DNA of 64,000 bases from Leisingera aquaemixtae (GTDB lineage Bacteria > Pseudomonadota > Alphaproteobacteria > Rhodobacterales > Rhodobacteraceae). The stretch is taken from NCBI RefSeq assembly GCF_001458395.1, contig NZ_CYSR01000040.1, positions 248,001-312,000 of the forward strand, read 5' to 3'. Positions 39,572 through 62,148 of this stretch are shown here, one piece after another. Position 1 is the stretch's first letter. The number at the start of each line of letters is the position of its first letter. The translations under genes were made by a program, and so were the position numbers. The notes under the pieces were generated by a model that was not told where the DNA came from, made no database searches, and worked only from the letters and a program-made list of their open reading frames with translations.

Positions 39572-40294
39572 CTATTGTGCCGGGTTGTCATGTTGTTGTG
39601 GAAGGGGGTTACTGTTCCAGACATAGCCTATCCCGCGAACTGAGCGGATCAGAACCGGGGCTTCTCCAGGTTCCTCGATCTTTCGCCGAAGCCGTGCGAC
39701 ATGGCCGTCGATGGTGCGGTCCAATGGTGCCCAGTTGCGGCCGTGCAAAGCCATTGAGATGTCATCGCGGCTCAGTACCCGGCCAGGATAGCGTAGAAAA
39801 AGTTCCAGCAATTGCTGTTCCATGTTTGTCAGATCAATGGTCTGTCCATTCGGACGGAGGATTATTCCACGCTTTATATCCAGCACATTGCGGCCCAGTG
39901 TGATCCTGCTACCGGCTACTGATGGCGTCCGATACCGTTCAAGGATGGCTGCAATCCTCAGGATAACCTCCCGGACGAGGAAAGGTTTGACCACGTAATC
40001 GTCGGCGCCGTTTTCCAGGCCCTGAACCCGATCAAATGGTTCGGTCCTGCCGGAAATTATCAGGATTGGAAGGTTGCGTTGCTGGCGAAGTTCCCGGGCC
40101 AATTCCAGCCCGTCCTCCTGGCCCAGTTTCAGGTCCAGGGTGACAATGTCTATATGGTGGTCCCTGATGGCCGTGAACAGGGATTCCCGGTCCCAAGCCT
40201 CAACCACAGTCCAACCCTGTCCCTCCAACCCAATGCGCAGCGTTTCCCTCACATCGGGTTCGTCTTCAACGGCAAGGACAGAAATCTGAGCCAT
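39572..40294 (-). CDS. OmpR/PhoB-family response regulator
   Basis: The 240-residue protein has a receiver domain (Glu10/Asp11, phospho-acceptor Asp54 in IVTLDLKLGQEDG, Lys in VVKPFLVRE) and a winged-helix C-terminus (LTNMEQQLLELFLRYPGRVLSRDDI, then RTIDGHVARLRRKIE...IRSVRGIGYVW). The start is uncertain: ATG at 40294 gives the standard receiver N-terminus but has no clear ribosome site; ATG at 40330 adds 12 residues and lies 90 bp from an FNR-like box. No kinase is adjacent; the hybrid kinase at 44096 is a possible partner. Confidence 0.9.
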   Translation of the reverse strand: MAQISVLAVEDEPDVRETLRIGLEGQGWTVVEAWDRESLFTAIRDHHIDIVTLDLKLGQEDGLELARELRQQRNLPILIISGRTEPFDRVQGLENGADDYVVKPFLVREVILRIAAILERYRTPSVAGSRITLGRNVLDIKRGIILRPNGQTIDLTNMEQQLLELFLRYPGRVLSRDDISMALHGRNWAPLDRTIDGHVARLRRKIEEPGEAPVLIRSVRGIGYVWNSNPLPQQHDNPAQ

Positions 40295-40412
40295 GAGAGC
40301 AAATGTCCAGTTCTGGCCCATTGTAGCCATTTCCCACTTGCGAGGGAAGCCACGCGGGGCGGTTCAGCTTCTAGCTGCCAGAACCCTCTGCGACCCGCAG
40401 GTGCGCTCCTCA

Positions 40413-40426
40413 TTGACGGCTGTCAT
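40413..40426. promoter_or_regulatory. FNR-type box TTGACGGCTGTCAT
   Basis: One mismatch (last base) from the TTGAC-N4-GTCAA repeat recurring in this island. The centre is 90-126 bp from the possible starts of the minus-strand response regulator and 173 bp from the YgiT-type gene on the other side. Confidence 0.55.
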
Positions 40427-40592
40427 TGCAGGTTTTGCAGCACGGCGCACCATTCAGATCCCCGCTGCCGTCCCTGCCGATTCCATGGCCCTAGGGCCAG
40501 GGATTTCACATGGGGCAGCGGCTCAATGAAGTTTATGCATCTGGCCAGGGTCAAACCGGTCGTCGGTGCGCCACAATGGGACAGTACGAGTC

Positions 40593-40913
40593 ATGAAAAC
40601 GAACATCGCCAATATTGATGAGCTTCGGCACCGCCAGGAAGGAACCGGGCAGTTGCCGCTCTGCGGCCGCTGCGTTCAAAGCCAACTGGAGCGGCAGCAC
40701 GTCAAGACCGCGGTCTGGCGCGAAGCCAAACTGATGGTCGTGGAGAATATTCCGGCTTTGGTCTGCCCGGCCTGCGGTGAGGAGTTTATCGGCCCGGAAA
40801 CAGCGGCCGGCTTGCAGCAGATGTGTCAGAACGGAGAGAGTATAGTCGGCTTGGTCTCGCGCCTGATCGTGCCGGTGTTCGATTTCGCCGTGCTGAATCC
40901 GGAACGCTTATGA
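40593..40913 (+). CDS. YgiT-type zinc finger domain protein
   Basis: A 106-residue protein with two Cys pairs: PLCGRCVQ near the N-terminus and LVCPACGEEF in the middle, joined by a short beta region (WREAKLMVVENIPAL). This is the YgiT/MqsA-like zinc-binding fold. The C-terminal HTH of full MqsA antitoxins is absent and no toxin gene is adjacent, so it is not a standard toxin-antitoxin pair. Its stop overlaps the ATG of a 20-codon hydrophobic ORF. Confidence 0.75.
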   Translation: MKTNIANIDELRHRQEGTGQLPLCGRCVQSQLERQHVKTAVWREAKLMVVENIPALVCPACGEEFIGPETAAGLQQMCQNGESIVGLVSRLIVPVFDFAVLNPERL

Positions 40914-40972
40914 CATCGGTAAAACCGGTACTCCTTGGACTGGTCATCTTACTGGTCCTGGCGCTTTCCTAG
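40910..40972 (+). CDS. Possible 20-residue single-helix membrane peptide
   Basis: ATG overlaps the YgiT-type stop (ATGA) and encodes MTSVKPVLLGLVILLVLALS: a basic residue followed by one hydrophobic helix, the typical form of bacterial small membrane proteins. The tight overlap supports translation; there is no homology evidence. It could equally be chance. Confidence 0.35.
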   Translation: MTSVKPVLLGLVILLVLALS

Positions 40973-41119
40973 GGCCGGCTTTTTGATTGGCGTGGTGAAA
41001 TGGGGGATCTGCTGCCAATCGGGGTAACCAGTCTTCTGGTGTCAGACGCGAAACGGCCCTGCTGGCGGGTGGTAACCGCCCAGCAGGGCCGCCCTGTTGC
41101 GATGGCTTCAGCCGCAGAT

Positions 41120-41359
41120 TCAGTCCAGCGCAGCCAAAGTTCCCGCTTCAGTCGCGGCGTCCATTTCCTCCTGATCGAGGCTGCCGTCCTCATTGGCGTC
41201 CATTGCGGTGAACTGGTCTTCAGTGACATCGGGGTAGACCGCTGTCAGTTCCTCGTAGCTCGCCATGCCGTCTTCGTCGGCATCGACGTCCGACATCGCT
41301 GCCAGGGCAGCACTTGCCGCCATGGCCATAGCAGCAGCAGTAAGTGTGTAAACTTTCAT
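41120..41359 (-). CDS. Small exported EF-hand protein 1
   Basis: A 79-residue protein with a signal peptide (about 1-21, cleavage after ALA) and two canonical EF-hand loops: residues 26-37 (DADEDGMASYEE) and 54-65 (DANEDGSLDQEE). It probably binds calcium in the periplasm. GGAG precedes the ATG at 41359. An FNR-type box is centred 84.5 bp upstream. It is one of three related EF-hand genes in this island. Confidence 0.85.
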   Translation of the reverse strand: MKVYTLTAAAMAMAASAALAAMSDVDADEDGMASYEELTAVYPDVTEDQFTAMDANEDGSLDQEEMDAATEAGTLAALD

Positions 41360-41436
41360 GGTAATCTCCACTGCAAAACGGTGCGTACTTTTTACGGACC
41401 GGCAACAGCAGGATAGTCACGGTCAAACGGGTTTCA

Positions 41437-41450
41437 TTGACGGGCGTCAA
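41437..41450. promoter_or_regulatory. FNR-type box TTGACGGGCGTCAA
   Basis: Perfect TTGAC-N4-GTCAA inverted repeat, centred 84.5 bp upstream of the EF-hand 1 start (minus strand). Confidence 0.75.
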
Positions 41451-41482
41451 CGCTGTTTGCGGGCCAACCCGGACCGGCGGGT

Positions 41483-41866
41483 TTACGCCTCACGGCTGTC
41501 TTCCGTCCATAAGCTGGGCCCGCTCTTAATAGTGCTCACTTGACCGGCGTGGCGGTCCAGAGCGCACCGCGCCGGAGCCAGGCAATGCTGCAGCACCGAC
41601 GCCGCCAGCCTGCGTGTCTCCAGGCAGCCCGCTGTGGCGGCGGCGTCATATTCCGCCCCGTCCAGGAAACCGTCCCGGCTGCAGTCCAATGAGGCAAAAA
41701 GGGTTCTGCTGACATCCGGGTAGGCTTGGGTCAGCTCCTGATAGCTGAGTTTTCTGTCGTTGTTGGAATCGACCTTGCCGAGCGGTTCAACCGGCACTGC
41801 GAGCAGGGCAAAGGCGGCTGCAACGGCAGCGGCCAAACCTGGGACTGCATATGTGAATACTCTCAT
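41483..41866 (-). CDS. Small exported EF-hand protein 2
   Basis: A 127-residue paralogue of EF-hand 1. A signal-anchor (about 5-28) is followed by two EF-hand loops, DSNNDRKLSYQE (glycine at loop position 6 replaced by Arg, so weaker) and DCSRDGFLDGAE. A Cys-containing C-terminal extension of about 50 residues is absent from its relatives. GGAGGTGAGA directly precedes the ATG at 41866. The FNR-type box is 85.5 bp upstream, almost the same spacing as for EF-hand 1. Confidence 0.8.
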   Translation of the reverse strand: MRVFTYAVPGLAAAVAAAFALLAVPVEPLGKVDSNNDRKLSYQELTQAYPDVSRTLFASLDCSRDGFLDGAEYDAAATAGCLETRRLAASVLQHCLAPARCALDRHAGQVSTIKSGPSLWTEDSREA

Positions 41867-41944
41867 TCTCACCTCCAAAACCAAAAGGCGCCTTACAGAT
41901 ACGCGCCCGCTGGTTCAGGTTAGAAAGCGCCCCGCGACCGGCCA

Positions 41945-41958
41945 TTGATAGCCGTCAA
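41945..41958. promoter_or_regulatory. FNR-type box TTGATAGCCGTCAA
   Basis: Inverted repeat TTGAT-N4-GTCAA, centred 85.5 bp before the start of EF-hand 2 (minus strand). Confidence 0.75.
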
Positions 41959-42025
41959 CGGCGGCGCGGCTGAGCCGAGGCTATAAGCGGAAAGGGGGAT
42001 ATTTCTAGGCGGGAAGCTGCCGCCG

Positions 42026-42039
42026 TTGACGCCCGTCAA
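42026..42039. promoter_or_regulatory. FNR-type box TTGACGCCCGTCAA
   Basis: Perfect repeat on the plus-strand side of the same intergenic region, centred 68.5 bp before the ATG at 42101. It rules out the longer reading frame whose start codon lies inside the box. Confidence 0.75.
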
Positions 42040-42100
42040 TGTTGTGCGGTCATGCGTCCTGTATCTGCTACGGGAGTTGTCTGTGAAGAGTGCCGGTCCA

Positions 42101-42433
42101 ATGCCCCACCCAGATAAACTGCCGCTGCAGGCGGCTGATGATGACCATGAGATCGCGCCAGAGAGCACTCCCTGGACTTTCGAGACAATCGGAACTGGAG
42201 GGACCGCCGGGGGACTGCTTTGTGATTGCGAAAAGCTTGGGTCAGAGCCGGAGAAATCCGTCGGGGCGCTGGCTGACTTGGGTCTGAGCTGTGCCGAAAT
42301 AGCAAGCTATTACTCGGTGGAGCAGAGGTGTGTTCAGCATTTGCTGGGGCGGCGGCAGCTGGCACAGGGAAAGACCAAGCTGCGCGCGTTTGCGCGGTTG
42401 ATGCGAGCTAAGCTGTTTCCCCGTTTTCGGTGA
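42101..42433 (+). CDS. Hypothetical protein with HTH-like C-terminal half
   Basis: A 110-residue protein. The acidic N-terminal half is of low complexity; the C-terminal half contains LGLSCAEIASYYSVEQRCVQHLLG followed by a basic tail (KTKLRAFARLMRAKLFPRFR), which could be a small helix-turn-helix. The start is ambiguous: GTG at 42083 has a better GGGAG site, but a transcript starting about 42 bp after the FNR box centre would favour the ATG at 42101. No family recognised. Confidence 0.6.
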   Translation: MPHPDKLPLQAADDDHEIAPESTPWTFETIGTGGTAGGLLCDCEKLGSEPEKSVGALADLGLSCAEIASYYSVEQRCVQHLLGRRQLAQGKTKLRAFARLMRAKLFPRFR

Positions 42434-42467
42434 GAGCGAACCGCAGGGCGGTGGCGGGTGCAGGGTG

Positions 42468-42920
42468 CTATCCGTACCGCGCGTCGAATGTACCGCAGTT
42501 GAGGCCAATCAGATCAAGGCCTGCCGCCAAGTGGTCGCATAACATGGGAGTGCCACAGAGGTATCCGGCGGTACTGCCATTCTGATGATCTTCTGCCATG
42601 GCACGCAATTCCGGCCAGTCGTCAATGCTGGTGCCGTCACGCCCCAGCCACATCAGTGCAACTAGGTCCATCTGCGCATCCAGGCTGAGGTCGGATATGA
42701 TAGAGATCAGTTCCTCCTCCACAGGATCGGAGGGGCGGTCCTCAAGAATGCCAAGCGCCATGTCGTCCTCGTCCATGCCGCTGGCAGAGGGGTCGGTGCA
42801 GTCCGATTTGCCGTCATAGTCTCTGGCGAGGGCGATGATGTAACACACTGTGTCCAGTGGCACCTCTAAGTCCAGAGGTGCGACTTCAGGTTGCACGGTA
42901 CTGTGGTCTAAACTTGCCAT
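42468..42920 (-). CDS. DUF3775 domain-containing protein
   Basis: The 150-residue protein contains the DUF3775 core: LISIISDLSLDAQMDLVALMWLGRDGTSIDDWPELRAMAED, preceded by a strongly acidic linker (DPSASGMDEDD). Function unknown. It begins 27 bp after the universal stress protein stop on the same strand, so it belongs to the SPW-USP-DUF3775 unit under the box at 43999. Start ATG 42920 is chosen because the longer frame overlaps the USP gene. Confidence 0.8.
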   Translation of the reverse strand: MASLDHSTVQPEVAPLDLEVPLDTVCYIIALARDYDGKSDCTDPSASGMDEDDMALGILEDRPSDPVEEELISIISDLSLDAQMDLVALMWLGRDGTSIDDWPELRAMAEDHQNGSTAGYLCGTPMLCDHLAAGLDLIGLNCGTFDARYG

Positions 42921-42946
42921 GGCAGATCTTTCTGCGTTGTCTAGCT

Positions 42947-43468
42947 TTAGCGGGCTAGGATTACTGTGCATTGCGCACGGCGCAGCACCTTATTTGAGAC
43001 GCTGTCGTGCAGATATCGCCGCGCCGGCCCCAGCCCTTTCTGCCCGACCACGACTATGTCGCACCCTTCCAGTTCGGCGACGTTCAGGATTTCTTCGGCG
43101 CAATCACCGGGCAGGGTCAGGGTGCGAATGTTGCTGGCCCCTGCGGCGCGGGCGGATTTCTCGGCCCATCGCTGGATAAGCCGTCCGATTGCGGTCACGG
43201 CCTGCGCAATGGTGCCGGCACGGCTGGTTTCACTAATCAGCTGACTGATGTTTTCAGGCACATTGGTGAGCGCCAATTCTCCTGCTACGTGGTCCAAGAT
43301 GTGCTCGGCCTCTGCCAGATTTATAAGTTCTTCTGAGCGTCGGCTGTGCAGCAGGACATGCAGGATGATCAGCTCTGCCTCCAGACCCGCGGCCAGGCCT
43401 GCAGCGAACTGAACCGCCCGCTTCGCAGCTTTGGAGCCGTCTGTTGCCACAAGAATTTTCTGAGCCAT
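42947..43468 (-). CDS. Universal stress protein family (UspA-like)
   Basis: The 173-residue protein has the UspA fold: KILVATDGSKAAKRAVQFAAGLA at the N-terminus and the nucleotide-binding signature VVGQKGLGPARRYLHDSVSNKVLRRAQCTVI near the end (G-2x-G-9x-G-[ST] form). Such proteins support survival under oxygen or energy limitation. It lies 79 bp downstream of the SPW protein, same strand. Confidence 0.92.
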   Translation of the reverse strand: MAQKILVATDGSKAAKRAVQFAAGLAAGLEAELIILHVLLHSRRSEELINLAEAEHILDHVAGELALTNVPENISQLISETSRAGTIAQAVTAIGRLIQRWAEKSARAAGASNIRTLTLPGDCAEEILNVAELEGCDIVVVGQKGLGPARRYLHDSVSNKVLRRAQCTVILAR

Positions 43469-43547
43469 GGCGGGACCCTTCAGTATCGGCAGGAACGCAG
43501 GCGCCAGCCCGTCGACATTTTGTCCGGCAGGCTGGCGCCGGGATGTG

Positions 43548-43925
43548 TCAAGCGTGGCCGCCGCGATAAACCTCGATGGCGGTCCAGCCGCTGAGAGCGG
43601 CGACTATCAGACCGCTGACCACAGCATTCGCCGTTGCGGGGAAGGATACTTGGAACCCGAGCACCCATGGTGAGATCACCAGCCAAGCGCCGAGCGCTGC
43701 GCCAATCCATTCTTCCCATTCGCGGAAGGCGAACAGCTCAAAGGCTGCAAGGACCGCGACGACGGCGCCAATGATCATGAAATTCCAGGTGGCGGCTGAA
43801 ACACCAGCAGCTGGTTCTGCACCACCATCTGGCAAGCCGAGCAGCCGGGGGGACAGTATCAGCCAGATCCCAACAATCAGCGTGATCCAGTCTTGCCAGT
43901 GCTGTTTACTCAATTGCCGTTTCAT
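43548..43925 (-). CDS. SPW-repeat membrane protein 1
   Basis: A 125-residue protein with four predicted membrane helices in two repeats, each with a W..W...I.G.W motif and an SP-rich turn (LILSPRLLGL and LVISPWVLGF), the SPW-repeat signature. Function unknown. The N-terminus KRQLSKQHWQDWI resembles the two other SPW proteins of this island. GAGG lies before the ATG at 43925; the FNR-type box is 80.5 bp upstream. Confidence 0.85.
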   Translation of the reverse strand: MKRQLSKQHWQDWITLIVGIWLILSPRLLGLPDGGAEPAAGVSAATWNFMIIGAVVAVLAAFELFAFREWEEWIGAALGAWLVISPWVLGFQVSFPATANAVVSGLIVAALSGWTAIEVYRGGHA

Positions 43926-43998
43926 TGGTTCATCCTCATGTCTTGAACCGCGGCTTTCTGCCGCCTTAGCAATATTGCCATGTTGGTGCGGATCTGCA

Positions 43999-44012
43999 TT
44001 GACTGCCATCAA
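43999..44012. promoter_or_regulatory. FNR-type box TTGACTGCCATCAA between divergent units
   Basis: TTGAC-N4-ATCAA, centred 80.5 bp before SPW 1 (minus) and 90.5 bp before the hybrid kinase (plus). It can control both the SPW-USP-DUF3775 unit and the kinase. Confidence 0.75.
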
Positions 44013-44095
44013 TCCGCCCCCCCCTTGTGCCTGTGCCGCTCCCTTGGCGTGGTCTGCTGTGGTATCATCCAGAGGCACAGGGCGGAGCGCAGCTG

Positions 44096-45658
44096 ATGGC
44101 CAAGCCGGAACAGCCATTTTCCGAACAGGAAGCCGCATCCCTCGGCGGCGCGCTGGTGCGGTTCATTACAGCTGCACCGGCGGCACTGGCGTTTCTTGAC
44201 GCGGATCTTCGCTATTCCGCGTGGTCGAAGGCCTGGGCAGGGTTGCACGGGTTTGGGGCCCGCGATCTCGCTGGGGTGCGGCATCAGCAACTGCGTCCAG
44301 ATAGCCCCGCGGCCTGGTGCGCGGCTCTGCACCGGGCGCTGGAGACGGGCAGTGGCAGTGCAGGAATGGACAGTTTTGCGACGGGCGGTCACCGGACAGT
44401 ATTGCTGCGGTGGCGGGTAGAGCCGGTGAAAGACCTGGACGGAGCCGTAGCGGGGCTCAGCCTGTATTGCGAGGCGGCGGAGGCGGACGGTGACTATGAG
44501 ACGGAGCAATCCAAGCGGCAGCGGCTGGAAACCATCGGGCGGCTGGCTGGTGTTATCGCTCATGACTTCAACAACCTGCTGACGGTGATCCTCGCCAATC
44601 TGGAGCTGGCGGCGTTCCGTATCCGGAATGAGGACGCGCGCGGATTGCTGCGGCGGGCGAGCGAGGCAGCCGAGATGGGAGCCAGCTTCAATAAGCGGCT
44701 TCTGGCACTGGCGGGGGGGCGGAGGTCCGAACCGGCTGTGATTAAAGTGAACCGGCATATCACCGACACTTGGCAGGTCGTGGAAAGAATTCTGAGTGAG
44801 GATACCCGGCTGCAGTTCCATCCCGGCGCGGATGTCTGGCCGGTAAAAGCCGACCCAAGCGAGTTGGACGGTGCTCTCTTAAACTTAGTGGCGAATGCGC
44901 GTGATGCGATTGACGGCAGCGGTGAGGTCACGATTGCCACGAAGAATGTTCAACTAACGACTGCGGAGGCTGCCCGAATAGCCGGAGCGATGCCTGGTGA
45001 TTTTGTGCGTATCTCCGTCGCTGACACTGGAAGCGGAATGCCGTCCGAAGTTGCAGAGCAGGCGATGGAGCCGTTTTTCACCACCAAACCAACCGGTGCG
45101 GGCAGCGGGCTGGGGCTGACGAGCGTCGGGATGACAGTGGCCCGGGCGGGTGGCTTCCTGCTGCTGGACAGCCTGCCAGGGGAAGGGACCACGGTCAGCC
45201 TATACCTGCCGCGCACTCTTGAGGCTGCGCAGGATCCGGACGACGGGGAGGATGCGGATCTCCCCTTTGGCGACGGTCAGTTGATCCTGGTCGTAGAAGA
45301 CGACCCACTGGTGCGGGAAGCGGTCCTGCAGCGGCTGGAAGTGTTAGGCTATGCCGTTCTGGAGGCCGCCGACGGCGAGGCAGCACTAGCGCTGCTGAAA
45401 CAGGGGGAACCGGTAGACTTGGTGTTTTCCGATGTTGTGATGCCGGGCAGGCTTTCGGGCTATGACCTGGCACTGCTACTGCGCCGCAGGTTTCCGGGGG
45501 TCGGGGTTCTGCTGACCTCGGGCTATGCTTCGCGCATGGTGCCACGGCGGCGGCGGATTATGGTTCGCTCCGAGCTGATCGCTAAGCCTTATTCGTTGCA
45601 GGTGCTGGCGCGGGCGGTCCGCCGGGCCCTATTGGCAGCAGGAAAGGCGGAGGGGTAA
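44096..45658 (+). CDS. PAS-containing hybrid histidine kinase with receiver domain
   Basis: The 520-residue cytosolic protein has a PAS domain (about 20-130; ALAFLDADLRYSAWSKAW), HisKA with His156 (GVIAHDFNNLLTVI), HATPase (LLNLVANARDAI, DTGSGMPSEV, GSGLGLTSVGM) and a C-terminal receiver with Asp446 (LVFSDVVMPGRLSGYD). No membrane helix, so it senses a cytoplasmic signal. GGAG precedes the ATG at 44096. The FNR-type box upstream ties it to the stress regulon. Confidence 0.92.
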   Translation: MAKPEQPFSEQEAASLGGALVRFITAAPAALAFLDADLRYSAWSKAWAGLHGFGARDLAGVRHQQLRPDSPAAWCAALHRALETGSGSAGMDSFATGGHRTVLLRWRVEPVKDLDGAVAGLSLYCEAAEADGDYETEQSKRQRLETIGRLAGVIAHDFNNLLTVILANLELAAFRIRNEDARGLLRRASEAAEMGASFNKRLLALAGGRRSEPAVIKVNRHITDTWQVVERILSEDTRLQFHPGADVWPVKADPSELDGALLNLVANARDAIDGSGEVTIATKNVQLTTAEAARIAGAMPGDFVRISVADTGSGMPSEVAEQAMEPFFTTKPTGAGSGLGLTSVGMTVARAGGFLLLDSLPGEGTTVSLYLPRTLEAAQDPDDGEDADLPFGDGQLILVVEDDPLVREAVLQRLEVLGYAVLEAADGEAALALLKQGEPVDLVFSDVVMPGRLSGYDLALLLRRRFPGVGVLLTSGYASRMVPRRRRIMVRSELIAKPYSLQVLARAVRRALLAAGKAEG

Positions 45659-45807
45659 GACGCAGGCCGGAACGCCGGGGCGGATCCGGCCTGCCGGAAT
45701 GCCCGCGGCCTCGCTAGGAACAGGGTTGCAAGGGCATTCGCTCTGCCGCGCAGCCCGTGCAGCGGGCGGCGGCGGCAGCAGTCTGGCAGTTTGCACCGCA
45801 AAGTGCA

Positions 45808-45821
45808 TTGACAGCCGTCAA
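45808..45821. promoter_or_regulatory. Orphan FNR-type box TTGACAGCCGTCAA
   Basis: Perfect repeat in the 188-bp space between two convergent genes (hybrid kinase end and host-attachment protein end). No recognisable gene starts at the usual 60-90 bp distance on either side; an unannotated small transcript is possible. Confidence 0.65.
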
Positions 45822-45846
45822 CGGCCATGAAGAGAGGTGCAGTGTT

Positions 45847-46296
45847 TCAGGAGGAGAGTGCTTCGCGAATTGCATCAGCCAGCGAATGGTAGGGCAGGCG
45901 CACCAGGTTCTTTGCAAATTCCCGTGTCACTTTTGCCTGCAGACTGTCCGGTACCTCTTCGCGCCAGACTCCCAGAATGCTGGGCGAAGCAAACAGCACA
46001 AGCCTGTCGAAGTTCTGATCACGTAGCGCCGAGTTCAGGAAATCGGACACATCGCGCAAGAATTCGCACTGGTCGGCCCGCTGCGGCGACTGGTGCGATT
46101 GCCTGGCCGGACGGCGTCCGTTGCCGGTGGGGGCAAAGGCGCGCCCGGGTTTGCCGGCGATGATGCCGCGGACGTGCCGTTCTGGAGCCTGCAGCACAAT
46201 CTCCAGCCCTGCGGGGCTATGGGGTTTAGGCAGCCCCTGCAGGATCCGCGCACGGTGCGAATTGATGATGACATACCAGTTGCGGTCCGAGTTCAT
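45847..46296 (-). CDS. Host attachment protein family (pfam10116-like)
   Basis: A 149-residue protein starting MNSDRNWYVIINSHRARIL, the characteristic beta-strand opening of the host-attachment family (named from an Agrobacterium/rhizobial adherence gene). FLRDVSDFLNSALRDQNFDRLVLFASPSILGVWRE and LVRLPYHSLADAIRE are also typical. It is likely a cytosolic RNase/eRF1-like fold; the attachment role is indirect. GGAG is upstream of the ATG at 46296. An in-frame ATG at 46470 with its own GAGG site would add 58 low-complexity residues. Confidence 0.8.
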   Translation of the reverse strand: MNSDRNWYVIINSHRARILQGLPKPHSPAGLEIVLQAPERHVRGIIAGKPGRAFAPTGNGRRPARQSHQSPQRADQCEFLRDVSDFLNSALRDQNFDRLVLFASPSILGVWREEVPDSLQAKVTREFAKNLVRLPYHSLADAIREALSS

Positions 46297-46527
46297 GAGG
46301 TTCTCCGGAACCTGCGCATTCAGCGGTGCTGGGGCTGTCGTGCCATGCTGCAAACTCACTGATCCGATGCGGGCAGGCGGCAAAGAAAGCGTGGAACAGG
46401 ATGCGGTAGGCTTCTGAAGGGGGCCCTGGGGTTGGCAAGCTGCTTTACGTATCGTGTCCGGTGCGGGCATGGCATCCTCGCTGTTCGCCTCTCCAGAACT
46501 ATTTTGAACGGTTTTGCGAAGCGCGCA

Positions 46528-46541
46528 TTGACTGCTGACAA
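46528..46541. promoter_or_regulatory. Degenerate FNR-type box TTGACTGCTGACAA
   Basis: One mismatch in the right half-site. It is centred 64.5 bp before the alternative ATG (46470) of the host-attachment gene and 238 bp before the preferred one, so its relevance depends on which start is used. Confidence 0.4.
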
Positions 46542-46592
46542 GACTGATGGGGCTATTGTCTCCCATGGCCCGCTGCCCGATGGCGAAAAGGG

Positions 46593-46949: not shown

Positions 46950-46977
46950 CGTGCGAACCTTCTCTGAGTTGGGCAGA

Positions 46978-47628: not shown

Positions 47629-47702
47629 GGCTGGCTTCCCGAACGCGCCGCAGCGCCTTTCGCCGCGGTGACACCAGTATGAACCATTTGCCGGAAGTTT
47701 CA

Positions 47703-47716
47703 TTGATGGCGGGCAA
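47703..47716. promoter_or_regulatory. FNR-type box TTGATGGCGGGCAA between BON and LysR genes
   Basis: One mismatch in the right half-site, but it sits at the island's usual distance from both divergent starts: 81.5 bp to the BON gene and 78.5 bp to the LysR gene. Confidence 0.6.
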
Positions 47717-47787
47717 GAGTTGTGTCTCTGCGCTTCGGGACACGGGCGGCTTCTGCTAGACTGTATCGCCCGCATTGGAGTTGAGCC

Positions 47788-48672: not shown

Positions 48673-48690
48673 AGCACTGAAAAATATGAT

Positions 48691-53667: not shown

Positions 53668-53727
53668 GCCAGCGCCTCCGCTGCTCCAGTCCTTCCGCAA
53701 CTGTGCCACACCGGGGCCGGGGCGCGG

Positions 53728-55209: not shown

Positions 55210-55261
55210 TCAGCCAAAACCTGCCGGGACCCGAGCGGGCAGGGCAGGAACCAGCCGGCCT

Positions 55262-55275
55262 ATGACCGCTGTCAA
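55262..55275. promoter_or_regulatory. FNR-type box ATGACCGCTGTCAA
   Basis: First base deviates; the other positions match. Centred 79.5 bp before the gene at 55348. Confidence 0.6.
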
Positions 55276-55347
55276 TGCCCCTCCGGCAGGGGTGTGGTTT
55301 GGGTGGCCTTGTTCATACTATTGCGGAGCAAAATCCCGGAGGGTGTC

Positions 55348-55734
55348 ATGAAAGTGTCCAGTCAGCAAATTCAGAATGAGCGACCAGCCATGGCTGCGGA
55401 TCGAACGGTCCCTTTGCCGGTAGCGCAGGCAATGCAGGTCTGTGCCGAAGTCTGGGGGGAGGCCTGCAGTTTCACCATGGCCCGTCTCGACGAAAACTTC
55501 AAAACGCAGCACTGCATACTGGGCTGCATCAGTCTTGACGAGATCCAGATGGTGCAGTGGCGCCATGTTCAGAAGATGATGGATGATTACCACGAAGAAG
55601 CCGGGCGAATGGCCCGGTACTGGCAGGGATTGCCGGAAACTCCGCGGTTTCAGCCTGCGCCGTGGGGGCAACAGCCGGCAGGGCGCCGCGATGGAAAGGC
55701 TCCGGAGCACCCGGCTGGCAGTCAGGCAGCGTAG
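55348..55734 (+). CDS. Hypothetical protein, weakly phasin-like
   Basis: A 128-residue protein: a variable start, then an amphipathic helical middle (VAQAMQVCAEVWGEACSFTMARLDENFKTQ...QVQWRHVQKMMDDYHEEAGRMARYWQGL-like) resembling phasin-type helices, and a Pro/Gly-rich tail. No family assignment is secure. GGAGGG precedes the ATG at 55348 and an FNR-type box lies 79.5 bp upstream. Confidence 0.65.
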   Translation: MKVSSQQIQNERPAMAADRTVPLPVAQAMQVCAEVWGEACSFTMARLDENFKTQHCILGCISLDEIQMVQWRHVQKMMDDYHEEAGRMARYWQGLPETPRFQPAPWGQQPAGRRDGKAPEHPAGSQAA

Positions 55735-55752
55735 GGTCTGCGGTCCGGCGGG

Positions 55753-55766
55753 TTGACTGCTGTCAA
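55753..55766. promoter_or_regulatory. FNR-type box TTGACTGCTGTCAA
   Basis: Perfect repeat centred 77.5 bp before SPW 3; the following Hsp20 and Lon genes show no box of their own and probably share this promoter. Confidence 0.75.
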
Positions 55767-55836: not shown

Positions 55837-56193
55837 ATGATACGCAAGCATTGGCAGAATTGGATCATCACCGCCCTGGGTTGCTGGCTCGCCGTCACGC
55901 CGTGGCTTCATAATTCAGGGCTAGCCGACGGCGGTTTGGCCATCCCGGTCAGCTGGAGCTTCATCGCAGCCGGATCGGCAGCCGCAGTCCTGGCGGCCGC
56001 AGCCCAGTACACAGGAAACAGCTGGGAGGAATGGGGCTGCGTGGCAATTGGTCTTTGGCTGGTCCTCTCGCCTTGGACACTTGGATTTACTGACAATGGG
56101 CCGGTTGCATGGACGGCGGTTCTAAGCGGTGGGGCTATCATGGTGCTGGCCGGTTGGTGCATCGCGCAGGACCCCTGGCGGAGGAAAACCTGA
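55837..56193 (+). CDS. SPW-repeat membrane protein 3
   Basis: A 118-residue protein with four predicted membrane helices and two repeats, CWLAVTPWLHNSG and LWLVLSPWTLGF. The N-terminus IRKHWQNWIITALG parallels the other two SPW proteins. AAGGA is upstream of the ATG at 55837. It precedes hsp20 by 81 bp in the same direction. The three copies in one island suggest family expansion. Confidence 0.85.
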   Translation: MIRKHWQNWIITALGCWLAVTPWLHNSGLADGGLAIPVSWSFIAAGSAAAVLAAAAQYTGNSWEEWGCVAIGLWLVLSPWTLGFTDNGPVAWTAVLSGGAIMVLAGWCIAQDPWRRKT

Positions 56194-56274: not shown

Positions 56275-56694
56275 ATGGACCGTCAGCCTCCTGAGAACAT
56301 GTTGCTTTCCGAAGCGATGGCGCAGCTTGCGGCGACAGAGAAGTTCTGCCGTCAGCTGTTTCTGCTCACATCCTTGCAGGACGGGCAGCCCTGCTGGGAA
56401 CCGCCGGTGGATCTCTTGGAAACCGACGACGAGCTGCTTGTCTATGTGGTGTTGCCAGGCGCCAAGGCCGATGACGTTGAGGTGCGCATCAGAAACAACG
56501 AACTGATCATCCGGGGGCGGCGGGAGCCGCCGCCGGAGCTGTGCCATGCCACAGTGATCCGGCTAGAGCTGCCCTTTGGCCGGTTCGAACGGCGCATTCC
56601 GATCCCGCCGGGCACCTATGCCGTCAAGCGGCAGACGGTGCGGGGGCATTTGCTGATCCGGCTGTGCAAGAGCGGAGAGGGAGAGACGGCATGA
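56275..56694 (+). CDS. Hsp20/alpha-crystallin small heat-shock protein
   Basis: The 139-residue protein has an alpha-crystallin domain (about 48-135): PPVDLLETDDELLVYVVLPGAKADDVEVRIRNNELIIRGRRE, then ELPFGRFERRIPIPPGTY. The C-terminal IxI motif is degenerate (LLIRL). It holds unfolded proteins for refolding or degradation. Its stop overlaps the lon ATG (ATGA), so holdase and protease are made together. Confidence 0.9.
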   Translation: MDRQPPENMLLSEAMAQLAATEKFCRQLFLLTSLQDGQPCWEPPVDLLETDDELLVYVVLPGAKADDVEVRIRNNELIIRGRREPPPELCHATVIRLELPFGRFERRIPIPPGTYAVKRQTVRGHLLIRLCKSGEGETA

Positions 56695-59084
56695 ACCAAG
56701 CCAGCGCTTCAGATATGGCCCAGCTGCAGGACATGCAGAACGTTCCGTTGCCGGAAGACGGGTTGATTCTGCTGCCGGTGCGCGACGTGGTCGCCTTTCC
56801 CGGCACAGTCTTCCCTGTCTCTACCGGGCGAGCCAAATCCATTGCGGCAATCCAGCAGGCGATCCGCCAGTCGCGGCCTGTAGGGCTGCTGCTGCAGCGC
56901 AACCCGGCGGTCAGCGATCCCAGGGCGGAGGATCTATTTCGCATTGGCTGCGCTGCGAATATCCTTCGGCTGATGACTTCGCCCGACGGCGCGCATCACA
57001 TAATCTGCCAGGGAGTGGCCCGGTTTAGGCTGGTCGAGATGCTGAAGGGGCCGCCGTTTCCGGTGGGCCGGGTGCTGAACCTGCCAGATGTGACCAGCCA
57101 TCTGCCGCAGGTCGAGGCCCGGTTTTTGCATCTCAGAAGCCAAGCGGCAGAGCTGCTGTCGCTGTTGCCGCAGAGCCCCGCTGGGTTGGAGGAGGCGGCC
57201 CAAGCAGCCACCGAGCCGGGGGCGTTGGCGGATCTGGCAGCGGCCTATTCCGACATCCCAATTGAGGATCGGCAAGAGATCCTTGAAACCGTCGATATTG
57301 CTGCCCGGTTGGACAAGGTGTCGAAGATCCTGGCGCGGCGGCTGGAAGTGCTGCGCATCACCCGAGAGATCAGCGAACAGACGCGCGCTGCTTTTGACGA
57401 ACGCCACCGCGAGGCAATCCTGCGCGAGCAGTTGGCGGCAATCCAGCATGAGCTGGGCGAGGACGGCGGCAATGCGGAGGAGATTGCTCAACTGGGCGAG
57501 GCAATCACTCGGGCCGGCATGCCACCGGAAGCCGAGGCAATGGCACGCAAGGAACTGGCCCGCTATGCGCGCCTGTCTGACGCTGCGGGGGAAGGGGCGG
57601 TTCTGCGAAACTGGCTCGACTGGATGGTGGAATTGCCCTGGCAGGCGCCAAGCGGCCGACCGGTTAGCCTGATCCAAGCGCGGGGCATTCTGAACGCCGA
57701 CCACTATGGGCTGGAAAAAGTCAAAGCGCGGATCATCGAGTTCCTGGCTGTGCGCAAGTTATCACCTGAAAGCCGGGCGCCGATCCTGTGCTTTTCCGGG
57801 CCGCCAGGGGTTGGAAAAACCTCCCTGGGCCAGTCGATTGCGCGCGCCCTGGGGCGGACCTTTGGCCGGGTCAGCCTGGGCGGGGTGCATGACGAGGCCG
57901 AGATCCGGGGCCACCGGCGCACCTATATCGGGGCGCTGCCCGGCAGTATTATTCAGGCGGTGCGGCGGGCCGGCAGCCGAGATTGCGTGCTGATGCTGGA
58001 TGAAATCGACAAGCTGGGCCACGGTGTCCAGGGCGATCCCTCCGCAGCGCTTCTGGAAGTGCTGGACCCGGAACAGAACAGCACATTCCGCGACAATTAC
58101 CTTGGGGTGGATTTCGACCTGTCTCGAGTGGTGTTCCTGACCACGGCCAACATGCTGGAAGGCATTCCGCGGCCGCTCCTGGACAGGATGGAGGTAATCA
58201 GCCTGCCGGGGTACACCGAAGAAGAAAAGCTGGAGATCGCCAAGCGCTATCTGGTGCCGCGGCAACTGAGGGCCAACGGTTTGATGTACGAGCGCCTCCG
58301 GTTCACACCGCCGGCGCTGCGGCTGATAATCCGCAGCTATACCAGGGAAGCCGGGGTGCGCCAGCTGGAACGTCAGATCGGCGCCGTCCTGCGGGCTGCA
58401 GCTGTGCGCTATGCTGAAGGCAAGCCAGCGAAAAACAAGCTTGGGGTGGATCAGGTGGAGGCCGCGCTGGGTGCGCCGCTGTTTGAAAATGAGACCGCGC
58501 TGCGCATCAGTACGCCGGGAGTTGCCACCGGGCTGGCCTGGACGCCTGCCGGAGGCGACATCCTGTTTATCGAGGCCAGCCGAGCGCCGGGCAAGGGGCG
58601 GCTGATCCTCACTGGCCAATTGGGTGAGGTGATGCGGGAAAGCGCCCAGACCGCGTTGTCGCTTTTGAAGGCCCAGGCCGGGAGTCTGGGTCTGGAGGCC
58701 AAGAGCTTTGACAGCGTTGACATTCACGTCCACGTGCCCGCCGGCGCCACGCCAAAGGACGGTCCCAGCGCCGGGGTAGCGATATACACCGCACTGGCTT
58801 CCCTGTTTCTGGATCGTACTGTGCGCAACGATACTGCGATGACTGGAGAGATATCGCTGCGCGGGGTGGTGTTGCCAGTGGGCGGAATCAAGGAAAAAGT
58901 GCTGGCCGCCGCTGCAGCGGGGATTAACCGGGTGATGCTGCCCGCGCGCAACCGGCGCGATCTGGAGGACATTCCCGAGAGCACCCGTAAGCAGCTGGAT
59001 TTCATCTGGCTCGACACTGCCAGCGAGGCGCTGCGCAAAGCGCTGCAGCGCGCTGCGGGCAGAAAGGGCGCATCGGCTGGGTAG
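56691..59084 (+). CDS. lon: ATP-dependent protease Lon (LonA type), accessory copy
   Basis: A 797-residue protein with a LON substrate-binding domain (LILLPVRDVVAFPGTVFPV at about 25-45) and a helical linker (REAILREQLAAIQHELGEDG). The AAA domain has Walker A GPPGVGKTS (Lys376) and Walker B VLMLDEIDKLG. The protease domain has catalytic Ser693 (KDGPSAGVAI) and Lys734 (GGIKEKVLAA). It overlaps hsp20 by four bases with a GGAG-rich ribosome site. Since Rhodobacterales usually carry lon elsewhere, this is likely a second, stress-regulated copy (inference). Confidence 0.94.
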   Translation: MNQASASDMAQLQDMQNVPLPEDGLILLPVRDVVAFPGTVFPVSTGRAKSIAAIQQAIRQSRPVGLLLQRNPAVSDPRAEDLFRIGCAANILRLMTSPDGAHHIICQGVARFRLVEMLKGPPFPVGRVLNLPDVTSHLPQVEARFLHLRSQAAELLSLLPQSPAGLEEAAQAATEPGALADLAAAYSDIPIEDRQEILETVDIAARLDKVSKILARRLEVLRITREISEQTRAAFDERHREAILREQLAAIQHELGEDGGNAEEIAQLGEAITRAGMPPEAEAMARKELARYARLSDAAGEGAVLRNWLDWMVELPWQAPSGRPVSLIQARGILNADHYGLEKVKARIIEFLAVRKLSPESRAPILCFSGPPGVGKTSLGQSIARALGRTFGRVSLGGVHDEAEIRGHRRTYIGALPGSIIQAVRRAGSRDCVLMLDEIDKLGHGVQGDPSAALLEVLDPEQNSTFRDNYLGVDFDLSRVVFLTTANMLEGIPRPLLDRMEVISLPGYTEEEKLEIAKRYLVPRQLRANGLMYERLRFTPPALRLIIRSYTREAGVRQLERQIGAVLRAAAVRYAEGKPAKNKLGVDQVEAALGAPLFENETALRISTPGVATGLAWTPAGGDILFIEASRAPGKGRLILTGQLGEVMRESAQTALSLLKAQAGSLGLEAKSFDSVDIHVHVPAGATPKDGPSAGVAIYTALASLFLDRTVRNDTAMTGEISLRGVVLPVGGIKEKVLAAAAAGINRVMLPARNRRDLEDIPESTRKQLDFIWLDTASEALRKALQRAAGRKGASAG

Positions 59085-59293: not shown

Positions 59294-59413
59294 ATGATGT
59301 TGATACTTCTGCGTGGGCAGTGTCTGGGCCGCCTTGCTGGGCTGAGCCTGCTCGCAGGGTTTTCGATTTTTCTGGAGGGCGCAGGCATGAGGGGAGCTGA
59401 GCGGTGTTCATAG
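59294..59413 (+). CDS. Possible 39-residue membrane peptide
   Basis: ATGATG start and one hydrophobic segment (LAGLSLLAGFSIFL). It overlaps the start of the SLC13 gene by ten bases in another frame. No homology; reported because of the overlap and single-helix form. Could be chance. Confidence 0.3.
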   Translation: MMLILLRGQCLGRLAGLSLLAGFSIFLEGAGMRGAERCS

Positions 59414-61191
59414 ATCCGGGCAACTTTGCTCCGGCGCTGGCGCTGGCATTGACGGTAATGGTCTTTGCTGCCTTTGCCAGCGAGCGGTGGCCTGCGGATC
59501 TGGTGGCCTTCACCGGTGCCTGCGCCGCGCTGGCGCTGGGACTGGTAAGCACGGAGGATGTGCTAGCGGCACTGGCAAATCCGGCACCGGCAACAATTGG
59601 CGTCATGTTCATTCTGAGTGCCGCGCTGGTGCGGACCGGGGTGCTGGAAGGGCTGACCAGCTTCATGGCGCGGATGGCAAAACGCCATGCTGTCCTAGCG
59701 GTGGCAGCTTTCTTTGCCACGGCGGCTGCGGCTTCGGCGGTACTGAACAACACGCCGGTGGTAATGGTGCTGATCCCGGTTGCTATCGGCCTCGCCCGGC
59801 AGGCCGGTACGGTCCCGTCCAAGCTGCTGATCCCCTTGTCTTATTCTGTGATTCTGGGCGGCACGGTCACTATGATCGGCACCTCCACCAACCTCTTGGT
59901 GGACGGGGTCGCCCGTGGCCTGGGGATGGTTCCGTTCGGGCTGTTCGAGATTGCGCCGCTGGGGCTTGCGGTTGCATTGGCGGGGGGCGGGTTCCTGACT
60001 CTGGCCGGGCGGCATCTGCTTCCGGAGAGGGTAACGGTTACTGCCCAGACGGCTGAGCGGGAGGCGAAGAGCTGGCTGGTGGATGTCTTCATCCCAGCGG
60101 GCTCGCCGCTGATTGGCGCGCCACCGCTTACGGCGTTGGAGCTGACACGGGGCGGTACGCGAGTGATAGACGTGGTGCGCGGCGATGCGTCACTGCGCCG
60201 CGATCTGGCGGCGGTACGGCTGGAGGCCGGAGATATTGTGGTGCTGAAAGCCCGTGACAGCGCACTGATGGCCTTCAGCGAAGGAACCGCGCGGGGAGCC
60301 GGGATTCCGGACTTAGAGAGCGGCCGCACCCGATTGTCACAAACTGCTGAACTGCTGGTGGGGCCGGGGTCAAAGGCCGTGGGTCGCACCTTGGGGCGGC
60401 TGCGCTGGCGGCGGCGGTTTGGGGTCTATCCCTTGGCGCTGCACCGAAAAGGCGCCTCTGCCGGGAGGCGTCTGGAAAATACCGTGTTGCGGGTAGGGGA
60501 CACGTTGCTGGTGGAGGGAACGCTTGCTGACATTCAGCGGCTAGCTCTGGAGCAAAGCCTAGTGAGGCTGGTGCAGCGGCAGGCCCGCGCCTTCCGGCAC
60601 CGCAAGGCGCCGCTGGCAGTGGCGATCCTGCTGGGAGTTGTGGTGCTGGCTGGGTTTAATGCGGCGCCGATCCTAGCGTTGGCGCTGATTGGAGCGGCAC
60701 TGGTGATGCTGACACGCTGCATCGAGCCGGACGAGGCGTTTTCGGCGGTGGACGGTCGTCTGCTGATCCTTATTGTTTCAATGCTTGTTATCGGCCGCGC
60801 ATTGGACAGCAGCGGCGCCGTCGAGCTGATTGTTGGAGCGCTGAAACCGTTGATGGCCTTGGCAGGGCCATGGGTGGCGCTGGCCATTGTCTATGCCGTA
60901 ACTTCGGTGCTGACCGAAGTTCTGACCAACAGCGCGATTGCGGTGATCATGACGCCGCTGGCAGCGGGGCTTGCGGCAGCCCTGGGAGTGGATCCGCGTC
61001 CATTTGTCGTGGCGGTGATGTTTGCGGCATCCGCCAGTTTCGCCACCCCGATCGGTTATCAGACAAACACTCTGGTCTATGGAGCAGGCGGCTACAAGTT
61101 CGCGGATTTCCTGCGTATCGGCGTGCCAATGAACATAGTCACAGGCGCGGTTACCGTGCTCTTGATCCCGCTGTTGTGGCCGCTGGCTTGA
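59404..61191 (+). CDS. SLC13-family permease with two TrkA-C (RCK_C) domains
   Basis: A 595-residue transporter with about ten to twelve membrane helices split by a central cytoplasmic pair of TrkA-C domains (about 220-390; VDVFIPAGSPLIGAPPLTALELTRGGTRVIDVVR and GVYPLALHRKGASAGRRLENTVLRVGDTLLVEG). The SLC13/CitT-like signatures NNTPVVMVLIPVAIG and FATPIGYQTNTLVYGAGGYKF are visible. The substrate is likely an anion (dicarboxylate or sulfate) but is not determined. The start is GTG at 59404 with GGGGAG upstream. Confidence 0.9.
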   Translation: MFIDPGNFAPALALALTVMVFAAFASERWPADLVAFTGACAALALGLVSTEDVLAALANPAPATIGVMFILSAALVRTGVLEGLTSFMARMAKRHAVLAVAAFFATAAAASAVLNNTPVVMVLIPVAIGLARQAGTVPSKLLIPLSYSVILGGTVTMIGTSTNLLVDGVARGLGMVPFGLFEIAPLGLAVALAGGGFLTLAGRHLLPERVTVTAQTAEREAKSWLVDVFIPAGSPLIGAPPLTALELTRGGTRVIDVVRGDASLRRDLAAVRLEAGDIVVLKARDSALMAFSEGTARGAGIPDLESGRTRLSQTAELLVGPGSKAVGRTLGRLRWRRRFGVYPLALHRKGASAGRRLENTVLRVGDTLLVEGTLADIQRLALEQSLVRLVQRQARAFRHRKAPLAVAILLGVVVLAGFNAAPILALALIGAALVMLTRCIEPDEAFSAVDGRLLILIVSMLVIGRALDSSGAVELIVGALKPLMALAGPWVALAIVYAVTSVLTEVLTNSAIAVIMTPLAAGLAAALGVDPRPFVVAVMFAASASFATPIGYQTNTLVYGAGGYKFADFLRIGVPMNIVTGAVTVLLIPLLWPLA

Positions 61192-61364
61192 GTCTGGTGG
61201 ACAGCTAGGGGATGTGGAAAGGGGCGGGTTTGCGCGGGGTTGGGTAAGTAACTGAATTTGCTTTTTTAAAAGTTTACTTTGTTCCCTTGCCTTCAACGAT
61301 TGCCGGTCCCATTTCAACGATAGGCAGCTCATGACGGGTTGCCGGGTTTCTGATGGAGAAACAC

Positions 61365-61613
61365 ATGAGCAGAGTAGCTTTCGGCGCTCTTCTCGCGGCC
61401 CTGGCGGCAGTTTCGGCCAATGCAATGAGTGCCGGAATTGATACAGACGGCGACGGCAAGGCGTCCTTGGAGGAACTGCAGGCTGTCTATTCCGGCGTGA
61501 CCAGCGAACTGTTTGCGGAAATTGATGCAGATGCGGACGGTTTCGTGGATGACGAGGAAATGGCGGATGCGGTCGCCGCCGGAGTTCTGGAAGACCCAGT
61601 GACAGAGTTGTAG
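61365..61613 (+). CDS. Small exported EF-hand protein 3
   Basis: The 82-residue third paralogue has a signal peptide (about 1-20, cleavage after ANA) and two canonical EF-hand loops, DTDGDGKASLEE and DADADGFVDDEE. It is close to EF-hand 1 in length and spacing. GGAG lies before the ATG at 61365. Unlike the other two, no FNR-type box was recognised upstream. Confidence 0.85.
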   Translation: MSRVAFGALLAALAAVSANAMSAGIDTDGDGKASLEELQAVYSGVTSELFAEIDADADGFVDDEEMADAVAAGVLEDPVTEL

Positions 61614-61680
61614 CAGCTGGAGCGGCGGCGTTCCTGCAGCTTCTTCCGGCTGAACCCTTGTTTCGGAAAGGGGTATCACC

Positions 61681-62148
61681 ATGACAATTCGCAGACTGCT
61701 TGATGAACTGGAAGCAGACATCCAGTGGATTGCTCCAGTCTCACCCATGGATGTGGCCATCGCTCTGCTTGCGCAGGAGGATACATCAGCGCTGCTGGTG
61801 TCCTCGGACAAGCGGTCGATGGCCGGCATTCTGACCAGCAGTGATATCGTACGTTATCTTGAGGCCCACCAGAAGCTGCCCGGTCATTTGCGGGTGCGGA
61901 GCGTGATGACGCACCCCGTCATTTCCTGCGATGCCCGCCAGTCCGTGCAGCGGCTGGAATGGCTGATGTCAAAGCACCATGTGCGCCATATTCCAGTTAC
62001 TGAGGATGGGGAACCTGTTGCGGTGATCAGCATTCTGGACGTCACCCGCTACCGGCTGCTGACCGCGGAACAGGAGGCAGCTGAACTTCGGGACTATGTT
62101 GCTGGGGCATCCTGGCGGGTCAGACCGCGCCCGCACCGGCAGAACTAA
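61681..62148 (+). CDS. CBS-domain pair protein 2
   Basis: A 155-residue single Bateman module: IAPVSPMDVAIALLAQEDTSALLVSSDKRSMAGILTSSDIVRYL, then VRSVMTHPVISCDARQSVQRLEWLMSKHHVRHIPVTEDGEPVAVISILDVTRYRL. It is similar in scale to CBS protein 1 but with a different N-terminus. Probable nucleotide-responsive regulator. It lies 67 bp after EF-hand 3 and may share its transcript. Confidence 0.88.
   Translation: MTIRRLLDELEADIQWIAPVSPMDVAIALLAQEDTSALLVSSDKRSMAGILTSSDIVRYLEAHQKLPGHLRVRSVMTHPVISCDARQSVQRLEWLMSKHHVRHIPVTEDGEPVAVISILDVTRYRLLTAEQEAAELRDYVAGASWRVRPRPHRQN

Follow-up and report, generated by a model that had tools for sequence, protein, structure and literature searches.

The present study concerns a 64,000-nucleotide stretch of Leisingera aquaemixtae DNA (assembly GCF_001458395.1, contig NZ_CYSR01000040.1, positions 248,001–312,000), hereafter the window, in which a block of roughly 19.5 kb, at about 39.57–59.09 kb, constitutes a putative stress-survival island with an FNR-like regulator of its own and a cluster of FNR-type boxes of the form TTGAY-N4-RTCAA. 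We consider it likely that this block is a stress regulon for low-oxygen or redox conditions, portable and to a large degree self-contained. An original prediction, made from the DNA letters, had proposed a portable, clustered FNR-type regulon with its own regulator at 39572–62148, and this was supported by the box density, by the linkage of boxes and regulator, and by the absence of the block from the matching site of another genome (G004). The extent held as far as about 59.09 kb. The genes at 59404–62148 (DASS, third EF-hand and second CBS gene) fall outside the island because the block shared with a related species ends at that point, and neither an exact nor a one-mismatch box was found near them.

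The box cluster, its sub-type, its conservation, the promoter spacing and the linkage to the regulator gene can be read directly from the DNA. In the window, the pattern has eight exact matches, at 41437, 41945, 42026, 43999, 45808, 52399, 53728 and 55753, whereas 100 shuffles averaged 0.11 and never exceeded 1. Four near-match boxes, each with one mismatch, are located at 40413, 46528, 47703 and 55262; all of these positions had been listed previously. With up to one mismatch allowed, 17 sites were observed against 3.84 expected, and 12 of the 17 lie within 40413–55766. The whole genome (4,614,060 bases in 40 contigs) contains 28 exact boxes, eight of which are found in 14.3 kb of the island, and the GC-centre form of the box, TTGAYNGCNRTCAA, occurs six times, always in the island. 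Equal density elsewhere, the outcome named beforehand as speaking against a clustered regulon, was hence not observed. When TTGACNGCNGTCAA was searched within one mismatch, 11 sites were in the island and 7 elsewhere (18 in total); since the reversed control pattern also gave 7 sites over the whole genome, there is no visible excess of the GC-centre sub-type outside the island. Chance clustering of the boxes was rejected on the shuffles, the whole-genome counts and the reversed control. Eleven boxes were paired with genes, giving 13 box-gene pairs, and in these the box centre is 61.5–90.5 bp from the assigned start, in agreement with the range of mostly 60–90 bp given earlier; for the response regulator it was measured to the ATG at 40330, although the true start may be an inner ATG.

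The island boxes form a distinct class of putative operator, characterized by a purine-pyrimidine step at the centre of the spacer and by a TG directly after a half-site. After sites with identical context were removed, the 54 exact sites from the window and the regulator loci comprised 43 with a purine-pyrimidine and 2 with a pyrimidine-purine centre. The corresponding numbers were 1 and 14 for the 20 other exact sites in this genome, which were taken as FnrL sites by assumption, and 0 and 14 for 16 exact FnrL sites of Rhodobacter sphaeroides in the part of the published table considered (PMC2908626). Fisher tests on the pyrimidine-purine counts gave p = 8e-9 against the other genome sites and 7e-11 against R. 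sphaeroides FnrL; using only the 38 sites from distant relatives, the values were 3e-7 and 4e-9, all of them optimistic as the sites are related by descent. TG directly follows at least one half in 34 of the 38 distant sites, whereas 15 boxes from elsewhere in this genome have it on none of their 30 sides (1 of the 20 sites overall). The combined sequence of box and TG, TTGAYNNNNRTCAATG, is present nine times in the genome, with eight of the nine in the island. The TG side is directed toward the assigned gene in six of the eight exact boxes; in box 53728 it is directed toward the regulator gene, and in box 45808 toward no gene.

A -10-like hexamer, NANNNT, was found 21–22 nt beyond the TG side in 23 of 39 cases in the distant loci, as compared with 2 of 35 other sides (p = 1.1e-6); the 38 distant sites carry 74 sides once duplicates are dropped, and two near-copy loci (L068 and L069) were omitted from the TG, -10 and TG-side analyses. 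This spacing is that of a site centred near -41.5, as in predicted class II-like promoters, in which the -10 hexamer follows the box at about 22 nt; the arrangement was evident in the distant sites and weaker in Leisingera alone.

The regulator (54373–55209, plus strand) contains PF13545 (CRP-like helix-turn-helix, HTH) and PF00027 (cNMP-binding fold), both over the cut-off. An E-x-x-S-R recognition helix is typical of the FNR group. In the island regulator the helix reads TVETLCR, with E and R kept and C in place of S, which holds for the window copy and for each of the 16 named relatives; of seven aligned HTH matches (from 24 in the genome), FnrL and the island regulator alone carry E-x-x-[SC]-R. 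The Ser-to-Cys change was considered as a cause of the box sub-type and is weakened as such, as evidenced by Ser in 20 of the 22 proteins from 11 further loci that encode regulator pairs (see below). Four candidate cluster cysteines were identified, namely an N-terminal CxxCx7C (Cys15, Cys18 and Cys26) and Cys114 within a CW pair; in an alignment read by eye, both CxxCx7C and CW are shared by the window copy and 16 of 16 named relatives. Cys114 aligns with the core-domain Cys of solved FNR chains, e.g., 5cvr, and the N-terminal spacing is x7 in both the island regulator and this genome's FnrL, and x5 in solved FNR. In the classification of CRP/FNR regulators by Dufour et al. (2010), as far as the parts considered go, the FNR group has all four cluster cysteines and the FixK group lacks one or more of them. 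The island regulator has the three N-terminal residues and the core residue, and the presence of all four is at odds with an assignment to FixK.

The protein had been described as FnrL-like, and in the sense of FnrL this description did not hold. Its score with the FnrL equivalog model NF045989 is 89.7 bits, against a cut-off of 300 and 458.1 for the genome's own FnrL, and the FnrL copies of the genus are about 26–28% identical to it. In a tree of 30 rows, constructed without L068, L072 and some FnrL copies (two of these with an in-frame stop), the island and FnrL groups are on opposite sides of a 100/100 branch, the bootstrap not being settled. Together with the different box sub-type, these data mark the predicted protein as FNR-like but not FnrL, so that two four-cysteine FNR-type proteins, FnrL and the island regulator, are encoded in one genome. 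In Leisingera sp. ANG59 (L068, 3102–3854), the regulator frame lacks 27 codons relative to the window copy and ends after the DNA-binding domain. A gap of 630 bp (53741–54372) lies ahead of the window gene, with a right-facing box at its start, and is about 300 bp longer in genomes G011 and G014; possibly it holds a long leader or a small RNA gene, with autoregulation.

Conservation was examined in a related Leisingera genome (G020), the regulator of which is 82% identical. All 12 boxes have an aligned counterpart, and identity is 113 of 120 at half-site positions versus 1233 of 1440 at flanking positions, some of the summed flanks sharing bases with one another or with coding sequence. Of seven half-site changes, five keep or improve the consensus and two give the GACAA variant also present in box 46528. 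The DNA at 39.62–59.08 kb is in the same order in G020 at 87–90% identity, minus about 670 bp of the MgtE gene, and the flanks differ; in G004, a 20-kb stretch contains the right flank (59.14–64.0 kb) without the block. A conserved block, different flanks and a site lacking the block are features of a mobile island. Integrase genes are located at 28589–33317, 6 kb from the left island border. This region has two integrase-type genes in a low-GC stretch (46–52%) near tRNA-Asn at 25350 and 25703, and is perhaps a separate mobile element. Plasmid carriage was considered and rejected; two PLSDB records matched at 29–30% identity, both typed non-mobilizable.

Among 21 genomes of the genus, a regulator with at least 79% identity is present in four, this genome included, and one with 37% identity in a fifth. 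GC-centre boxes are clustered near the regulator in these five, and the other 16 genomes have 0–3, scattered. A search of 394 family genomes returned a regulator match at E 1e-28 in three, this one included, a minimum figure for the wider family. The 16 named relative loci belong to Leisingera, Roseovarius, Sagittula, Thioclava, Salipiger, Alloyangia, Poseidonocella, Maritimibacter and a Rhodobacterales member; relatives at 33–40% identity to the regulator are mostly found amid similar boxes. At least one exact box was detected in 14 of the 16 loci, and sites with at most one mismatch exceeded the shuffles in all 16. The 14 distant loci (L070–L083) also contain homologues of the response regulator (11 loci), Hsp20 (10), hybrid kinase (9) and Lon (6). 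There are 42 TG-sided boxes in the distant loci, and for 26 of these an open reading frame (ORF) of 60 aa or more begins 45–260 nt from the box centre at a ribosome-site-like start. Two of the 26 products (L073, near copies) were left out, and a scan of the remaining 24 identified Hsp20 in eight, SPW in three, CBS, DUF2267, Phasin_2 and glycine zipper in two each and cytochrome c in one. A second small cluster of extended boxes, located on contig 97 of G011 (40804–40902), matches the boxes of the EF-hand region on contig 82 in both sequence and spacing and is apparently a partial copy.

The extended motif TTGACNGCNRTCAATG was present at 66 places in 46 of the 394 family genomes, compared with 2 for its reversed control, which differs in dinucleotide make-up. 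All places beyond the loci already analysed were taken, resulting in 49 stretches, of which 12 matched the island-regulator profile at 1e-6; L143, apparently of another type, was set aside. Each of the remaining 11 (L126, L129–L134, L165, L167, L171 and L172) encodes an FNR-family pair, one member of which carries CxxCx7C in 8 of the 11. A baeRF/host-attachment homologue was found in 9 of the 11 paired stretches and in 0 of the 37 without a regulator match (p = 3e-8). Excluding the sites by which the stretches were selected, 16 exact boxes were counted in the 185 kb of the former and 6 in the 616 kb of the latter; the 16 comprise 7 with a purine-pyrimidine and 2 with a pyrimidine-purine centre, and 11 have TG.

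The organization of the core is as follows, with strands in brackets. At its left end is an OmpR-type response regulator (39572–40330, minus; Pfam Response_reg and Trans_reg_C), preceded by the near-match box TTGACGGCTGTCAT (40413–40426, minus), which is identical in G020 and has its centre 89.5 bp from the ATG. A small protein with two CxxC pairs, presumably similar to YgiT-type zinc fingers, is encoded at 40593–40913, between the response regulator and the EF-hand genes. EF-hand-like protein 1 (41120–41359, minus) was assigned by reading of the sequence, and its exact box (41437–41450, minus) has TG on the side of the gene and TATCCT 21 nt downstream. EF-hand protein 2 (41483–41866, minus; weak Pfam matches below curated cut-offs) is preceded by an exact box (41945–41958, minus) with TAACCT 22 nt downstream. 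The exact box at 42026–42039 (plus) precedes orf42101 (42101–42433, plus), whose 110-aa product has no NCBIfam match and for which homologous stretches occur in L080 and G020. SPW-repeat membrane protein 1 (43548–43925, minus; Pfam SPW), a universal stress protein (USP; 42947–43468, minus; Pfam Usp) and a DUF3775 protein (42468–42971, minus; PF12616) likely form an operon, as judged from their spacing.

The exact box at 43999–44012 (minus) has its TG side toward SPW1, with the gene of a PAS-HisKA-HATPase-REC hybrid histidine kinase (44096–45658, plus; Pfam, HisKA below the cut-off) starting on the other side; control of this kinase, as formerly proposed, is accordingly doubtful for this box. 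Between the 3' ends of the convergent kinase and baeRF genes (45658–45847) lies the exact box at 45808–45821 (minus), with its TG side leftward and counterparts in L069 and G020. Possibly it serves a small RNA or antisense transcript; a search for known RNA families (Rfam) over 38500–64000, the region of this box included, gave none at gathering scores. A host-attachment/baeRF family 12 protein (45847–46470, minus; PF10116 and PF18856) follows, with the near-match box TTGACTGCTGACAA (46528–46541, minus) before its gene and CAAAAT about 21 nt downstream. The near-match box at 47703–47716 (minus) is flanked by the genes of a protein with three BON stretches (46978–47628, minus; Pfam BON) and a LysR-type regulator (47788–48672, plus; Pfam), about 80 bp from each start and with TG on the BON side.

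Further to the right are a GroEL-family chaperonin (48805–50436, plus; Pfam Cpn60_TCP1), an MgtE-type divalent cation transporter with CBS (50549–51925, plus; Pfam), its gene being the one shortened in G020, and a two-CBS-domain protein (51946–52344, minus; Pfam CBS), whose exact box (52399–52412, minus) has TATCCT 21 nt downstream. A CbpM-like MerR_2 protein (52431–52730, minus; Pfam MerR_2) and a CbpA-like DnaJ protein (52735–53667, minus; Pfam DnaJ and DnaJ_C) precede the exact box at 53728–53741 (plus), which is 67.5 bp from the CbpA start and has its TG side rightward to the regulator gene. Beyond the regulator, the near-match box ATGACCGCTGTCAA (55262–55275, plus) is followed by orf55348 (55348–55734, plus), a small protein with no Pfam or NCBIfam match, and an exact box (55753–55766, plus) by SPW-repeat membrane protein 2 (55837–56193, plus; Pfam SPW), an Hsp20-family small heat-shock protein (56275–56694, plus; Pfam HSP20) and the Lon protease (56691–59084, plus; TIGR00763, 853.7 bits) at the right end of the core, which likely form an operon as well. 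To the right of the island, histone-deacetylase-type and GNAT acetyltransferase domains are joined in one protein (62520–63971), with matches in 4 of the 21 genus genomes.

An explanation with the same architecture and a signal other than oxygen, such as nitric oxide (NO), another oxidant, or input from the linked kinase and response regulator with the FNR-like protein as an amplifier, is possible but distinctly less probable. FNR clusters react with NO; homologues of the kinase and of the OmpR-type response regulator lie beside the regulator in 9 and 11 of the 14 distant loci, respectively, and among the related loci with regulator pairs, 3 of 11 pairs are without any CxxCx7C. However, all four cysteines are conserved across the window copy and 16 of 16 named relatives, as would be expected if sensing is direct, and the nearest characterized regulon, that of FixK2, is induced by microoxia.

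It is improbable that the island boxes simply belong among the usual FnrL sites of this genome, with the island regulator as a bystander or an FnrL partner. This genome does encode FnrL (458 bits), FnrL sites share the TTGAY-N4-RTCAA form, and published FnrL regulons contain usp genes (PMC2908626; PMC5398030). FnrL may bind the island boxes to some extent. Nevertheless, FnrL ownership is made unlikely by the spacer centre, by a TG that is mostly absent from the other boxes of the genome, and by co-occurrence, as clusters of GC-centre boxes are restricted to genomes with a member of the island regulator family. We regard it as highly improbable that the boxes have no regulatory meaning and arose by the spread of a repeat or along with duplicated promoters. 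The proximity of boxes 41945 and 42026 and the second small cluster in G011 could be read in this way, yet the box flanks seem unrelated by eye, the half-sites are better kept than the flanks, and a -10-like hexamer occurs at one fixed distance on the TG side.

Several observations weigh against a self-contained regulon with its own operator type. Boxes were found before the SPW, CBS, BON and EF-hand genes among the targets originally listed, and none directly before the Hsp20, Lon and USP genes of that list; the GroEL gene likewise has none directly before it, and a dedicated box is lacking for GroEL, MgtE and Hsp20-Lon. Hsp20-Lon and USP-DUF3775 would probably be reached as operon members behind the SPW genes. 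Box 53728 is at the right distance from CbpA but presents to it the side without TG, and box 45808, between convergent genes, has no gene in front. TG is not exclusive to the sub-type, as evidenced by the ninth site, TTGACCTGCATCAATG, which combines it with a pyrimidine-purine centre and recurs in 21 of 21 genus genomes. The sites in which the TG and -10 features were detected are also those that define them, and the contrast is weaker in Leisingera alone (window and G020), where 11 of 14 TG sides have the hexamer at 21–22 nt and so do 5 of the 14 other sides (p = 0.054). Two regulator loci, L076 and L081, have no exact box, and 16 of the 42 TG-sided boxes in the distant loci have no ORF of the kind defined above. 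No related regulator was found in 37 of the 49 stretches selected by the extended motif, which alone is therefore insufficient evidence, and the three pairs without CxxCx7C imply that direct sensing is not shared by all of the wider paired loci.

The gene set and its regulatory logic are already known from a parallel in Bradyrhizobium diazoefficiens. The FNR-family regulator FixK2 of this species recognizes TTGA/C-N6-T/GCAA boxes and has similar clustered target genes: expression of neighbouring GroEL, Hsp20, USP, host-attachment and DnaJ genes within bll4634–blr4654 falls in a fixK2 deletion at 0.5% O2 (PMC9104804), and host-attachment and CBS (blr4646) proteins are induced under microoxic conditions (PMC6515984). 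Unlike the island, FixK2 has targets spread over the genome, and it does not sense oxygen directly, being under FixLJ control (PMC2908626); in the part of its site table considered, 0 of 7 exact TTGAY-N4-RTCAA boxes have a purine-pyrimidine centre. FnrL of Rhodobacter and Dinoroseobacter is similar as an Fe-S oxygen sensor with TTGAY-N4-RTCAA sites, the -41.5 geometry and usp targets, but its regulon is genome-wide and its centres are mostly pyrimidine-purine. CrpK of R. sphaeroides is a second CRP/FNR-type regulator that shares DNA determinants with FnrL, and its authors considered that subtle motif differences might permit discrimination from FnrL; in contrast to the island regulator it is without the four cysteines and has an overlapping, dispersed regulon, with no spacer rule stated in the parts of that report considered (PMC4263372). 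HcpR of delta-proteobacteria is an FNR-family protein with local targets and the predicted consensus wyTTGACnnnnGTCAArw, though the predicted targets are hcp and frdX rather than stress genes (PMC1274295). The island also has an analogue in the mycobacterial DosR dormancy regulon, in which Hsp20, USP and CBS proteins are induced at low oxygen; the regulator family and the box differ from the FNR type, and the likeness is thus one of analogy and not of relation.

For the low-oxygen or redox regulon proposed here, our inference on cluster assembly, DNA binding, signal and regulatory direction is as follows. The cluster would probably be held by Cys15, Cys18, Cys26 and Cys114, and a drop in oxygen, or in another cluster-attacking agent such as NO, would lead the regulator dimer to bind island operators of the form TTGAC-NGCN-RTCAA-TG. 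Placed near -41.5, the dimer would activate transcription in the class II manner at the SPW-Hsp20-Lon, SPW-USP-DUF3775, CBS, BON, baeRF-type and EF-hand genes and probably at CbpA, and the right-facing TG side of box 53728 would probably allow it to regulate its own gene. The chaperone, protease, USP, CBS, BON, SPW and baeRF products would then let the cells enter a protected state. The island regulator is predicted to bind TTGACNGCNGTCAATG, and TTGATCCAGATCAA less well; under such a spacer code, the regulator and FnrL would each favour their own spacer, as in the operators TTGACGGCCGTCAATG and TTGATCCAGATCAA, respectively. Little overlap between the two regulons is to be expected, given that the spacer step and the TG set the island operator apart from the usual FnrL site. 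More tentatively, and at somewhat less than an even chance, we suggest that a branch of FNR proteins in Rhodobacteraceae uses a directional 16-bp operator, with a purine-pyrimidine centre and a TG on the promoter side, that keeps a stress regulon apart from that of FnrL despite the same half-sites.

A literature search (titles and abstract openings, with limited coverage of subscription journals) returned no description of this island or of a spacer rule; the four-cysteine regulator inside the island, the separate operator type and the portability are apparently new, as none was found in print. In published work, the target sequences of FNR, FixK and DNR have been described as virtually identical, and the parts considered leave open how the paralogues are told apart. 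A spacer code would be one answer to this question, and a matter of two to four bases. If the proposal is correct, a stress regulon travels as a unit with its own sensor, operator type and effectors, and a whole low-oxygen survival programme would move between genomes together with its own wiring.

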